Below are positions 5,260 through 20,577 of a stretch of 20,913 nucleotides of DNA, piece after piece. Source of the DNA: a virus; the IMG/VR virus record IMGVR_UViG_3300032046_000261, positions 1-20,913 of that record; one strand, 5' to 3'. Numbering within the stretch: position 1 is the stretch's first letter; each line of letters begins with the position of its first letter. A model generated the notes under the pieces. It was not told where the DNA came from and searched no databases. It saw only the letters and a list, made by a program, of their open reading frames with translations. The translations under genes and the position numbers were made by a program.

Positions 5260-6081
5260 TTAAACTCGATTCATAGTGAATGGCATTATTGTCGAAACTG
5301 GATTCTCAAATCCAGAACCATTGTCTACAAGAAATGGCATTACTGTTATTGCCGGGTTTTCAAATCCTGCACCATAATCAACAACAAATGGCATTATTGT
5401 CGAAACTGGATTCTCAAATCCAGAACCATTGTCTACAAGGAATGGCATTAATGTAATAGATGGATTTGTAAATGCTACTGCATTAGTCATAACAAATGGC
5501 ATAATTGTTGATGTCGGATTCTCAAATCCAGAACCATTGTCTACAAGAAATGGCATTAATGTTATTTCTGGATTTTCAAATTCTAAACCAATACCCATTC
5601 TAAACGGCATAAGTGTAAGTTCACTGTCGAATCCCGGAGCTTCATTCATTAGGAACGGCATATATGTTATCGGTTGCGGCGCCGGATCCGTAACAATAAT
5701 ATATCCGATCTTTACTAATGATGATGAACCGCCCGTATTATAAGCGGTTAATTTTACCGAATATATTCCGGAAAATGGATAGATATGTGTCGGATTTTCT
5801 AATGTTGAATCAACTGAGCCAATGTTTTCAAAGTCCCATTGCCAGGCATTCGGTGAATTAGTGGATAAATCAGTAAATGCAACACTTAGAGGTTCAGTCC
5901 CGGTTACCGGAACACCTACAAAATCTACAACAGGCACCGGTGGAGGCGGTAAAGGAACAGCATTAATAATAATAATAATCGATGTGACAGATCCTGCTGC
6001 CGGCGACCCCGGCGAACCAGTATCGTCGAATACTTCAAGAAATACAGTAGGAGCTTTCCTGGTGCTGTCTGGAAATGCCAT
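5260..6081 (-). CDS. PKD-domain virion protein with C-terminal 18-residue repeats
   Basis: 273 residues. After an N-terminal strand-rich segment (TVFLEVFDD), a five-isoleucine run (35-39) and a proline stretch (43-50) comes a PKD immunoglobulin-like domain (about 50-132) with its usual signature: WQWDFE at 80-85, NPTHIYPFSGIYSVKLTAYN at 96-115. PKD domains in phages occur on surface proteins and may bind polysaccharide (family knowledge). From about 138 to the end are about eight repeats, mostly 18 residues, of the form T(I/L/V)MPF(L/V)VDNGSGFENP. The start codon follows the previous stop by 3 bases without a clear ribosome site, so translational coupling is likely. With the two genes before it, it forms one operon. 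Function inferred as exposed structural or adsorption protein; no known gene name fits. Confidence 0.75.
   Translation of the reverse strand: MAFPDSTRKAPTVFLEVFDDTGSPGSPAAGSVTSIIIIINAVPLPPPPVPVVDFVGVPVTGTEPLSVAFTDLSTNSPNAWQWDFENIGSVDSTLENPTHIYPFSGIYSVKLTAYNTGGSSSLVKIGYIIVTDPAPQPITYMPFLMNEAPGFDSELTLMPFRMGIGLEFENPEITLMPFLVDNGSGFENPTSTIMPFVMTNAVAFTNPSITLMPFLVDNGSGFENPVSTIMPFVVDYGAGFENPAITVMPFLVDNGSGFENPVSTIMPFTMNRV
5263..5670 (-). repeat. 54-bp tandem repeats coding for MPF...GFENP units
   Basis: About seven and a half in-frame units of 54 bases (first unit 51) encode the end of the PKD protein. Near-identical units alternate with diverged ones: three copies carry MPFLVDNGSGFENP, separated by MPFVMTNAVAFTNP or MPFVVDYGAGFENP variants. 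This suggests amplification of a two-unit, 108-base block. Confidence 0.9.
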
Positions 6082-7267: not shown

Positions 7268-7290
7268 AGAAAAGCGCCCCGGAGGGCCCC
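7268..7290 (-). terminator. Probable original gene 23 terminator, now separated by the HNH insertion
   Basis: On the minus strand a short GC stem (GCCC / GGGC, plus 7276-7279 and 7284-7287) with a TCCG loop (UNCG type) is followed by GCTTTTCT. It lies about 30 bases past the relic of the capsid gene end, the distance expected for a gene 23 terminator. The stem is only 4 bp, so strength is uncertain. Confidence 0.55.
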
Positions 7291-7299
7291 TAAATTCTT

Positions 7300-7336
7300 T
7301 ACCAATCCTGGAGTCGGATTAATAGAACTTTAATGT
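7300..7336 (-). pseudogene. Relic of the gene 23 3' end (encodes TLKFY-stop plus trailer)
   Basis: The minus strand reads ACA TTA AAG TTC TAT TAA, encoding T-L-K-F-Y-stop, exactly the last residues of the capsid gene whose working end is at 8048-8065 (ACT TTG AAA TTT TAC TGA). All six codons differ but are synonymous. Homology continues into the trailer: TCC, then ACT, then GGATTGGTA in both copies. The relic codons AAG and TTC match usage nearby in the capsid gene (for example TTC GAG, AAG GTT), whereas the working end uses AAA TTT, so this relic is probably the original end. Confidence 0.75.
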
Positions 7337-7338
7337 TA

Positions 7339-7347
7339 AGATAAATA
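7339..7347 (+). promoter_or_regulatory. Possible late promoter directly before the HNH gene
   Basis: AGATAAATA ends 6 bases before the HNH start codon. A late transcript would begin near the ATG itself and be almost leaderless. No ribosome site is visible. Confidence 0.35.
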
Positions 7348-7353
7348 TTAATT

Positions 7354-7998
7354 ATGAACTATCTTAAGGTTTACCATCAATTAATATACAATTCTCAACA
7401 TAGGATATTATCCCAAGATATTTATGTCGAAAAGCATCATATCGTTCCTTTATCACTAAAAGGAGAAGATATTGAATCAAACATTGCTGTACTCACTGCT
7501 AAAGAACATTTCGTCGCACACCACCTTCTCTGGAAAATATATAGAAACAGAGAGATGACTAAAGCATTTATGCTAATGTGCCATACAAAAAGAAACGGAA
7601 TAAAATACAAAGTCTATGCCAGAGATTATCAATTGCTTAAAGAGGATGCAAGAAAAATTCAAAGTGAATTTATGAAGGGACGGCCTGGACCTAATATAGG
7701 AAAAATATGGACAGAAGAATCCAAGAAAAAATTAAGTAATACAACTAAGGGCAGAACTGGGGGAAATTATAATACTTCTGGATTTAAAGGAAAACATCAT
7801 ACCGAAGAAAATAAAAAAGCAATAAGCGAAAGAAGAAAAGGTGTTGGTACGCATTTTACACCACATTCAGAAGAAACCAAGAAGATGATGTCAGCAAATC
7901 GTTTAGGTAAAACAAAGGTTCCTTGGACAGAGGAACGTAAAGCGGCTAGAAGAGAATTGTTAGCAAGAAAATTTAGTCAAGAAAAAAGCCCCGATTAA
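7354..7998 (+). CDS. Free-standing HNH homing endonuclease with NUMOD3 repeats
   Basis: 214 residues. The HNH core is at about 25-63: EKHHIVP (H28, H29), N43, and EHFVAHHLL (H52, H56), the order seen in phage HNH enzymes of this class. The C-terminal half has NUMOD3-type DNA-binding repeats (GKIWTEESKKKLS, GKHHTEENKKAIS, HSEETKKMMS, WTEERKAARRELL), very basic. It cuts DNA at a recognition site lacking the insertion and is copied in by repair (family knowledge). It runs against the surrounding late genes and sits at the 3' end of gene 23, between the working capsid terminus and a relic of the same terminus. It is similar to the HNH gene at 19828 (HHIVP...G.D...N...LT..EH..AH.LL.K.Y). The stop codon lies in the loop of a terminator. 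No ribosome site is seen, so expression may be low. Confidence 0.9.
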   Translation: MNYLKVYHQLIYNSQHRILSQDIYVEKHHIVPLSLKGEDIESNIAVLTAKEHFVAHHLLWKIYRNREMTKAFMLMCHTKRNGIKYKVYARDYQLLKEDARKIQSEFMKGRPGPNIGKIWTEESKKKLSNTTKGRTGGNYNTSGFKGKHHTEENKKAISERRKGVGTHFTPHSEETKKMMSANRLGKTKVPWTEERKAARRELLARKFSQEKSPD

Positions 7999-8009
7999 GG
8001 GGCTTTTTT
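7982..8009. terminator. Bidirectional terminator between HNH gene and gene 23
   Basis: A perfect 11-bp inverted repeat, AAAAAAGCCCC (7982-7992) and GGGGCTTTTTT (7999-8009), with a 6-base loop. It gives a U-run in either direction, serving the HNH gene (plus) and the gp23 gene (minus). The HNH stop codon TAA occupies part of the loop. Confidence 0.93.
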
Positions 8010-8047
8010 GTGTCAGCGTACTCTTTGAAGTACCAATCCAAGTTGGA

Positions 8048-9220
8048 TCAGTAAAATTTCAAAGTGCTGCTGTCGATACCAACCTTCGACAGATAGTCAG
8101 CTGCGTTACCGAAGCTGTTTGCTGTGTTAGTAAGTTCCAAGTATCCATAACGTGTCATGAACGAAACAACAGGCTCGAAAGTCTGTGGATCCATAACTGG
8201 ACCAACGCTCATTAGCGGAATGTATGGGCAGTAATAAGCTGCCGCATCAGTTTCGGTAGGACCCTTGTAACCGATAAGAACTGCTTCACCGTCACCGGCG
8301 TACTGGTTTACATAAACGCGCATTGTGCTGTTCAATGTACCAACAAACTTTGTGTTTGTAGGTGCTTCGAATGTACCTTCTGTGGTACGTGCAAACGACG
8401 ATGTAGTAGCTGTCTGAAGAATTGTCAACGCTGTTGGCGAAACAACTGCCCAGTTAGCAGCACCACGACGTGTACGTGCAGCAATCAAGTTAGCTTGCTG
8501 GTTGATCATGACTGCAAGAGCAGCCATTTCGTCACCAACATATGTAGCTGTACCAGATACAGCAGCTTGGTTGAATGTAGTTGGGGCAACCGGTACCAAG
8601 CTTGATAGCTTGAATAACATTTCTTGGTCGATTTCAACTGTGATTTCTTGTGCAAGAGCTTGCATGATTTCTGCTTCGATATCAATACCGTGAATGGCAT
8701 TAGCGTCTTGTGCAGCCTCGAAAGTCCAACGAGCCGACAACTTACGTGTCTTGGCTTCGACGGTTTCCTTCAAGATTTGGATGCTCATCTTGTTTCCTGG
8801 AACGCCTTCTAGACGTGCTGTAGAAGCAGCACCTGGATCAGCAACAACTTCGTTACCCGAATATGCCTTAGCAATTTCGAATGGACCAAGTGCTTCTGTA
8901 CCAGCTGTTACACCAGCAGCGGTGTTAGCGTAGCGAACGCGCAATGTGTGGATCTGACCAACTGGACCGGTCATAGGCTGAACACCCATGATTTCGTTCG
9001 CAATAACGGTCGGCATAACACGACGGATAAGTGGTAGCATGACCTTGTTTAGTACAGCGATGTTACCAGATTGTGTGGCTCCAGCAGTAGCCGATTCAGC
9101 CAAGTAACGACGAGTGTTTTCAAACACGACGTCCATGGACTGTCTACGGGTTCCTGAGAGACCTTCTAAAAGGGCTTGTTTGGTAGCGCCCCAGTTCGAT
9201 TCAAATAGCTTTGTTGCCAT
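8048..9220 (-). CDS. gp23: Major capsid protein, T4 gp23 family
   Basis: 390 residues, shorter than T4 gp23 (521). Family hallmarks: LIRRVMPTVIANEIMGVQPM (64-83) with GPVGQIHTLRVRY (85-97), KTRKLSARWTFEAAQDANAI (157-176) leading into the EIMQALAQEI helix, and YYCPYIPLMSVGPVMDPQTF with SFMTRYGY near the C-terminus. It forms the hexameric capsid lattice around the gp22 core and is trimmed by gp21. The protease site rule (I/L)-x-E is met in the N-terminal part at L40-A41-E42 and at L17-L18-E19; which is used is not known. Start: ATG with AGGAG upstream, 16 bases after the gp22 stop. The last codons use AAA TTT, unlike AAG/TTC just before, and appear to have been supplied by the adjacent HNH insertion. 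A vertex protein gp24 is not seen here. Confidence 0.97.
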   Translation of the reverse strand: MATKLFESNWGATKQALLEGLSGTRRQSMDVVFENTRRYLAESATAGATQSGNIAVLNKVMLPLIRRVMPTVIANEIMGVQPMTGPVGQIHTLRVRYANTAAGVTAGTEALGPFEIAKAYSGNEVVADPGAASTARLEGVPGNKMSIQILKETVEAKTRKLSARWTFEAAQDANAIHGIDIEAEIMQALAQEITVEIDQEMLFKLSSLVPVAPTTFNQAAVSGTATYVGDEMAALAVMINQQANLIAARTRRGAANWAVVSPTALTILQTATTSSFARTTEGTFEAPTNTKFVGTLNSTMRVYVNQYAGDGEAVLIGYKGPTETDAAAYYCPYIPLMSVGPVMDPQTFEPVVSFMTRYGYLELTNTANSFGNAADYLSKVGIDSSTLKFY

Positions 9221-19827: not shown

Positions 19828-20577
19828 ATGAATTATTTTCGAATATATGATAATATAATCAATAGAGCAAAGACTCGAACTATGCTAGGATATTCTGAAA
19901 ATCATCACATAGTTCCTAAATGCATGGGTGGAACCGATTGCAAAACTAACCTAGTAAGATTAACACCCGAAGAACATTATCTGGCACATCAATTACTTGT
20001 TAAGATGTATCCCGAAAATAGAAAACTTGTATATGCTGCACTGATAATGTGTCAATCAAAAGAGGGTGTAATTAGGAATAATAAATTATACGGTTGGATT
20101 CGCAAGGCAGTCTCTAAATCAAGAAAAAATATTCCTAAATCCGGGGAACATAAACAGAAGTTACGAGATGCTAATCTCGGTAAAAAGCTATCAGAAGAAA
20201 CGCGCGAAAAGATGAGGAATAAAATAGTTTCTCAAGAAGCAAGAGATAATATTAGTAAGGCTATACTGGGTAAAAAGAAACCGGAAAGAACTCAGGAACA
20301 TAAAGATAATCTCGGAAAAGCATTGAAGAAACCGAAATCAAAAGAGGGCAGAGAAAATATAGGATTAGGTGCTATAAAACGAAGTATTAAAACTATCATG
20401 GAGAAGAAAAATTTATACATCTCTTTCTATAAAATGTATGATGAGAAATATACAAAACATGAAATAAAAGAATATCTTTGCGTAAAAGAAAGAGCATATT
20501 ACGGATATATTTCTAATAGATCGTACATAGAAAATACAATAAAGGAGCATCAAGATGCCCAGTCGCTCAAAGGCTAA
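19828..20577 (+). CDS. HNH homing endonuclease with NUMOD3 repeats
   Basis: 249 residues, same architecture as the gene at 7354. HNH core: ENHHIVP (H26, H27), N41, EEHYLAHQLL (H50, H54). From about 100 onwards come basic NUMOD3-type repeats (SGEHKQKLRDANLGKKLS, TREKMRNKI, KKKPERTQEHKDNLGKALKK), then a C-terminal region with YKMYDEKYTKHEIKEYL that looks like a helix-turn-helix binding end. Start ATG with AGGGGAT nine bases upstream. Its 3' end overlaps the next gene by 23 bases in another frame, so its last 7 residues are simply the start of that gene read out of frame, as expected for an insertion directly upstream. It carries AAAGGAG, which now serves as that gene's ribosome site. Confidence 0.9.
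   Translation: MNYFRIYDNIINRAKTRTMLGYSENHHIVPKCMGGTDCKTNLVRLTPEEHYLAHQLLVKMYPENRKLVYAALIMCQSKEGVIRNNKLYGWIRKAVSKSRKNIPKSGEHKQKLRDANLGKKLSEETREKMRNKIVSQEARDNISKAILGKKKPERTQEHKDNLGKALKKPKSKEGRENIGLGAIKRSIKTIMEKKNLYISFYKMYDEKYTKHEIKEYLCVKERAYYGYISNRSYIENTIKEHQDAQSLKG

Follow-up and report, generated by a model that had tools for sequence, protein, structure and literature searches.

A likely end-replacing HNH homing element at the 3' end of a phage major capsid gene

Background

Mobile endonuclease ORFs that carry foreign carboxy-terminal gene ends have been described in fungal mitochondria, in atp6 of Allomyces and in atp6, atp9, cox2 and nad3 of Glomus (PMC3630166), and C-terminal duplications beside endonuclease ORFs have also been reported in PMC6279837. 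The free-standing endonucleases of phage T4, encoded by the mob (HNH) and seg genes, lie between genes and cut at a distance from their own insertion (PMC2988022). Other cases split a gene: mobE in nrdA of Aeh1, and mobA with T4 genes 39 and 60, the latter with a 50-nt bypassed insert; for gene 60 it has been suggested that linked sequence may protect the gene from the enzyme (PMC2988022, PMC5009743). In PhiPA3, the intron endonuclease gp210 attacks an essential gene of a co-infecting jumbo phage, and 17 silent changes introduced into the phage gene in the laboratory blocked its recognition (PMC11620839).

Here an HNH endonuclease gene lying immediately 3' of a phage gene 23 is described. The window, meaning the whole stretch of DNA analysed, is the 20,913-base virus record IMGVR_UViG_3300032046_000261. 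It is part of a virus with a major capsid protein 77.7% identical to gp23 of jumbo phage PA5oct. Related loci are designated L followed by a number.

Results

Two synonymous gene 23 ends flank the HNH gene

The features of the locus are as follows.

7272..7291, minus strand: what is left of the native gene 23 terminator (aligns with that of L012; weak fold)
7300..7318, minus strand: far (native) trailer TCCGACTCCAGGATTGGTA (matches uninserted L012)
7319..7336, minus strand: far copy T-L-K-F-Y-stop, ACATTAAAGTTCTATTAA, the displaced native gene 23 end (sequence, L012 comparison, shuffles)
7340..7347, plus strand: late-promoter-like GATAAATA before the HNH start codon (sequence only)
7354..7998, plus strand: HNH/NUMOD3 homing endonuclease gene, 214 aa (PHROG 655, 1.9e-42; NUMOD3, 3.9e-7)
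7432..7539, plus strand: HNH catalytic region, HHIVP..N..H (invariant residues; profile matches to HNH domains of solved structures)
7789..7893, plus strand: NUMOD3 DNA-binding motif (Pfam PF07460)
7982..8009, no strand assigned: terminator-like hairpin common to both convergent genes (folds on both strands, z -5.1 and -4.5)
8031..8047, minus strand: near trailer TCCAACTTGGATTGGTA (best match L004)
8048..8065, minus strand: near copy T-L-K-F-Y-stop, ACTTTGAAATTTTACTGA (sequence)
8048..8080, minus strand: imported recoded end, codons 381-390 and stop (breakpoint at nt 1142 in relatives; synonymous hotspot at 382-390)
8048..9220, minus strand: gene 23, major capsid protein, the host gene of the insertion (Pfam Gp23, 1.8e-95; PHROG 138)

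Gene 23 ends on the minus strand with the codons ACT TTG AAA TTT TAC TGA (8065-8048) followed by TCCAACTTGGATTGGTA, and beyond the HNH gene the same strand reads ACA TTA AAG TTC TAT TAA (7336-7319) followed by TCCGACTCCAGGATTGGTA. All six codons differ synonymously, the stop included. A preliminary description made from the sequence alone had reported this duplicated end, with a shared trailer and terminator after both copies, and had judged it hard to obtain by chance. Each of these claims held, and the coordinates were exact. The common trailer differs in length by 2 nt (17 nt near, 19 nt far), and the far hairpin is the weaker of the two: the near hairpin is strong and bidirectional (-16 to -17.7 kcal/mol; no shuffle equally stable) and contains the final HNH codons (KSPD-stop), whereas the far one reaches -12.2 kcal/mol and is equalled by 26 of 200 shuffles. 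A synonymous TLKFY-stop arose in only 2 of 20,000 mononucleotide shuffles of the downstream region. One refinement concerns extent: only 5-6 codons are present in the far copy, against an imported recoded tract of about 10 codons together with the trailer and terminator.

Far copies accompany one HNH family

The region downstream of gene 23 was scanned in 43 related loci with at least 800 nt beyond the gene, using the relaxed pattern L-K-F-Y. The pattern was found in exactly seven loci (the window, L003, L007, L028, L029, L030 and L036), at +698 to +717; the reverse complement gave no matches and the reversed sequence one. All 7 of the 7 loci with an intact HNH gene of the window's family (window counted) had a far copy, compared with 0 of the 36 others. 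Chance resemblance of two gene ends is ruled out by this pattern and the shuffles, and an assembly artefact is ruled out by the reappearance of the layout in independent contigs. The seven loci are partly related to each other and therefore represent fewer than seven independent insertions; the window with L003, L007, and the L028-L030/L036 group are clearly distinct.

The region 3' of gene 23 has other occupants. Endonucleases of PHROG 3339 (Hef-like), about 480-530 aa and in either orientation, lie directly after gene 23 in L005, L041, L049, L038, L047, L061, L059 and PA5oct (L097), so that two endonuclease families share a hotspot 3' of gene 23. No far gene-end copies were found beyond the PHROG 3339 endonucleases at gene 23, and end replacement by these enzymes is ruled out there. 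Gene content beyond gene 23 is otherwise variable.

Three side observations were made in this region. L018/L019 and L027 have decayed HNH genes after gene 23: in L018 the N-terminal half is lost and the end of gene 23 again reads AAG TTC TAT, and in L027 the gene is reduced to a C-terminal stub. Seven loci (L213, L214, L223, L224, L229, L230 and L233) carry a partial copy of the gene 23 C-terminus of the E-I-A-V-x-N type about 86-90 nt after the stop, ahead of the next gene's late-promoter-like sequence and with no endonuclease between; it could conceivably be the scar of an old insertion. In the window itself, an ORF at 5260-6081 (minus strand) contains tandem 54/108-bp units at 5279-5616 that encode repeats like MPFLVDNGSGFENP, its protein being one of several large repetitive ORFs downstream of gene 23.

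The inserted gene encodes an HNH/NUMOD3 protein under purifying selection

The HNH gene is convergent with gene 23 and its NUMOD3 match lies above the cut-off. Residues H28, H29, N43, H52 and H56 are invariant in 13 HNH homologues, and profile region 106-169 matches the DNA-binding domain of I-TevI. Poor prediction of the C-terminal half limited a fold search to short and weak HNH-domain matches. Where calculable, dN/dS between homologues was 0.10-0.27. The gene thus encodes a functional protein under purifying selection, an HNH homing endonuclease by sequence; its cleavage activity is inferred. The octamer GATAAATA is also present ahead of many downstream genes in relatives.

An endonuclease encoded in a group I intron was considered and ruled out, since gene 23 is closed by a stop and terminator of its own ahead of the HNH gene and no intron family was found around it in Rfam among matches up to E = 1.

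The window holds another HNH gene of PHROG 655 at 19828-20577 (plus strand), between a lysozyme-like gene (minus strand) and a PDDEXK_15/RusA-like gene whose start is overlapped at 20555. No duplicated gene end was found at this second gene.

The end within gene 23 is imported and the far copy is native

Relatives with and without the insertion were compared. L028 (inserted) and L033 (empty) differ by 1.05% over the first 1142 nt of gene 23 and by 38.7% over the last 31 nt, where all codons but one are synonymous and a single amino acid changes; outside the insert, their flanks agree on either side. L007 and L009, which have the next gene in common, differ by 4.4% before and 45.2% after a break at the same nucleotide of gene 23, nt 1142. 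As gene 23 of these inserted phages is almost the same as in their empty relatives as far as nt 1142 and sharply recoded after it, the end adjoining the HNH gene is the import and the far end is the original.

In the window itself the breakpoint is less sharp than in these two pairs. The nearest gene 23 among empty relatives differs by 7%, and the break is blurred for want of a close empty relative, so that the assignment here rests on trailer, terminator and clade. The far end, trailer and terminator match uninserted L012 at about 60 of the 69 positions of 7268-7336, and every one of the far end's best matches is an uninserted phage; the near trailer and terminator match L004, which enters HNH-like sequence before its contig ends. 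The preliminary description had held that the element entered the last codons of gene 23 and brought a recoded end, that the far copy was the original, and that an uninserted relative should match 7268-7336 and not 8010-8050. The first is supported by the empty-site pairs, the second by these pairs and L012, and the third is met by the trailer and terminator of L012. Its further suggestion, that the new copy may resist the enzyme, remains an inference, as do cleavage of the native end and sparing of the recoded one.

Ends on either side of the HNH gene would also result if the gene 23 end had first been duplicated locally, the copies had drifted and the HNH gene had then landed between them. 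This explanation is very unlikely. Empty relatives have a single copy, it is the copy within gene 23 that has changed although the rest of the gene has diverged by 1%, and the near and far trailers have different best relatives; in the main it is refuted by L028/L033 and by the folE pair L159/L261 described below.

Alternatively, the far copy might be kept as an upstream control region of the HNH gene, its likeness to gene 23 being secondary. In its favour, the complement of the T-L-K codons gives AAGAG, AAGGG or AAGG within a few bases upstream of the ATG in L028-L030, resembling a ribosome-binding site, and the far decamer AAGTTCTATT is conserved among far copies even where the stop has been lost. 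Against it, this idea accounts neither for the native trailer and terminator that follow the copy nor for the recoding of the near end, and the HNH start in the window lies 17 nt from the copy and has a separate GATAAATA. As the whole explanation it too is very improbable, but a control role could exist as a secondary use compatible with end replacement.

Similar layouts recur in other genes and lineages

Both flanks of related HNH genes were compared in translation in two runs, the larger covering 169 loci. Most of these 169 loci showed no duplicated gene end. Clear cases were found at folE (GTP cyclohydrolase I) in L159/L419, L420/L421, L423 and L424-L426, with a weaker signal in L429 and a further case, L428, seen on reading. 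Matches in L100, L372 and L384 were judged to be repeated terminators or short non-coding sequence and were rejected, and those in L111, L345 and L417 were left out of the count.

The folE body of L159 is 94.9% identical to that of empty L261, the native folE end of L261 is 94.6% identical to the far copy of L159, and the flank beyond the far copy is 97.2% identical over 574 nt. The imported end of L159 departs from L261 at nt 425, where the difference rises from 4.9% to 39%. Unlike the gene 23 end, the imported folE end also differs in protein sequence. Between L423 and L424 the imported folE ends differ at 3 of 75 nt and the native ends at 19 of 75 nt, a pattern that recent transfer of the element would leave; the patchy distribution also fits mobility, which is inferred here without crosses.

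Recurrence is thus shown, and both criteria for an end-replacing element are met: an imported, in-phase, divergent end (L028/L033, L007/L009 and L159/L261) and a displaced native end beyond the endonuclease ORF, with L012 and L261 matching the far copies.

The convergent layout also occurs in a second lineage of gene 23 (L161, L163), where the recoded end is AITNVTFQ-stop. The far codons of L161 resemble empty L178 no more than the near codons do, and lie 54 nt away from the native trailer. A similar layout was seen at HD_4 (L452), SPFH (L365) and cell-wall hydrolase (L354) genes, as yet without an empty relative; these are probably of the end-replacing type. The peptidyl-tRNA-hydrolase-like gene (pth2) of L141 may be a mirror-image case at the 5' end of a gene. 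In L141 (2047-3049), TAG is the third codon in both copies of the gene start, which suggests that TAG is read as an amino acid there.

A synonymous hotspot at the 3' end of gene 23

Synonymous differences were counted in 46 dereplicated gene 23 sequences, with the same amino acids elsewhere in the gene as the expectation. Codons 382-390 showed 0.84 synonymous differences per codon against 0.43 expected, a value not reached in any of 20,000 resamplings, and the hotspot persisted when only the 35 element-free phages were considered (0.83 against 0.44). The excess, roughly double the level elsewhere in the gene when amino acids are matched, is confined to codons 376-390, and no other stretch of gene 23 comes close in the 46 sequences. 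Every near/far pair has TTC for Phe in the native end and TTT in the imported one, and the second lineage (L161) shows the same TTC to TTT change. This association is weak alone because TTT is common at Phe389 anyway, occurring in 31 of 43 uninserted phages.

Gene-end cassettes have also been swapped between uninserted phages (L009/L011 and L009/L020), with breakpoints at nt 1142-1148. Mosaic recombination could therefore be proposed instead: end, trailer and terminator cassettes would be exchanged through the gene body, with the HNH gene a downstream passenger, the far copy a leftover of unequal exchange and the recoding simply donor divergence. Those uninserted exchanges and the variable gene content beyond gene 23 speak for it. 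It is nevertheless unlikely, as far copies occur only with the window's HNH family (7/7 against 0/36), are missing where the other endonuclease family occupies this site and turn up again beside HNH relatives at unrelated genes, and as the synonymous excess is about twice that in the rest of the gene.

We interpret the hotspot as a mark left by repeated invasion, loss and escape. Given the exchange among uninserted phages, some recoding may predate the insertions or spread without the enzyme.

Discussion

The window locus is likely to be an end-replacing homing element. The mobile unit would consist of the HNH/NUMOD3 gene and the recoded last ~10 codons of gene 23, arranged tail to tail around a shared bidirectional terminator. 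In a mixed infection, the enzyme is predicted to cut gene 23 of a phage lacking the element, a few codons ahead of the stop, at AAGTTCTATT. The donor would serve as template for repair of the broken left end through the conserved body of gene 23, the recipient thereby copying the recoded end, trailer, terminator and endonuclease gene, and the right end would be joined at the remaining native codons, which would persist as the far copy. As the imported end is synonymous, the capsid protein would hardly change, and the recoded site should escape recognition by the enzyme. The cleavage site, the double-strand-break repair route and the resistance of the recoded end are all inferred, the last with the help of the silent-recoding result for gp210 (PMC11620839).

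A bolder reading is that phages carry a general class of such elements, moving HNH/NUMOD genes into the 3' (perhaps also 5') ends of conserved genes, and that the contest between enzyme and target has made the last 10 capsid codons a synonymous hotspot throughout a clade of jumbo phages. We favour this reading by a narrow margin.

Under end replacement, a selfish endonuclease without intron or intein can occupy an essential phage gene cheaply, since it supplies the end that would be missing. The recoded end would act as a codon-level immunity mark, so that synonymous change in a capsid gene would become selectable, and such a mark would explain a sharp codon hotspot otherwise taken for noise or codon adaptation. 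The recurrence in other phages and genes makes this look like a general route into essential genes without harm, probably one that hides the site from the element's own enzyme. Gene 23 is a standard environmental marker for T4-like phages, and its imported 3' ends call for caution in that use.

Among the described systems, gp210 of PhiPA3 differs from the window element in being intron-encoded, and there the recoding was made in the laboratory. The mobE and mobA cases share with the window an HNH endonuclease inside a functionally critical gene, but those genes are left in pieces or need ribosome bypassing, whereas gene 23 stays whole with its end replaced. The T4 free-standing endonucleases resemble the window element in having HNH enzymes outside introns, in flank co-conversion and in their phage setting. 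They differ in that the window insertion apparently lies at its presumed target and that the unit includes a recoded gene end. Three annotated HNH relatives that were inspected are all located between genes, and the empty-site comparison places the insertion within the last codons of gene 23.

No phage precedent for a recoded replacement end was found in the open-access literature searched, which did not cover subscription journals. Within that limit, the end-replacing architecture is known from fungal mitochondria and its phage version appears to be new. As in the window, the fungal mobile ORFs place an endonuclease ORF near the 3' end of an essential gene, leaving a working gene with an imported end and a displaced native end past the ORF, and their imported ends are likewise far more divergent in DNA than in protein (PMC3630166). 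The fungal ORFs, however, are mitochondrial, encode LAGLIDADG or GIY-YIG enzymes and lie downstream, some in phase with the gene, whereas the window element belongs to a phage and carries a convergent HNH/NUMOD3 gene with its own start and a shared terminator.
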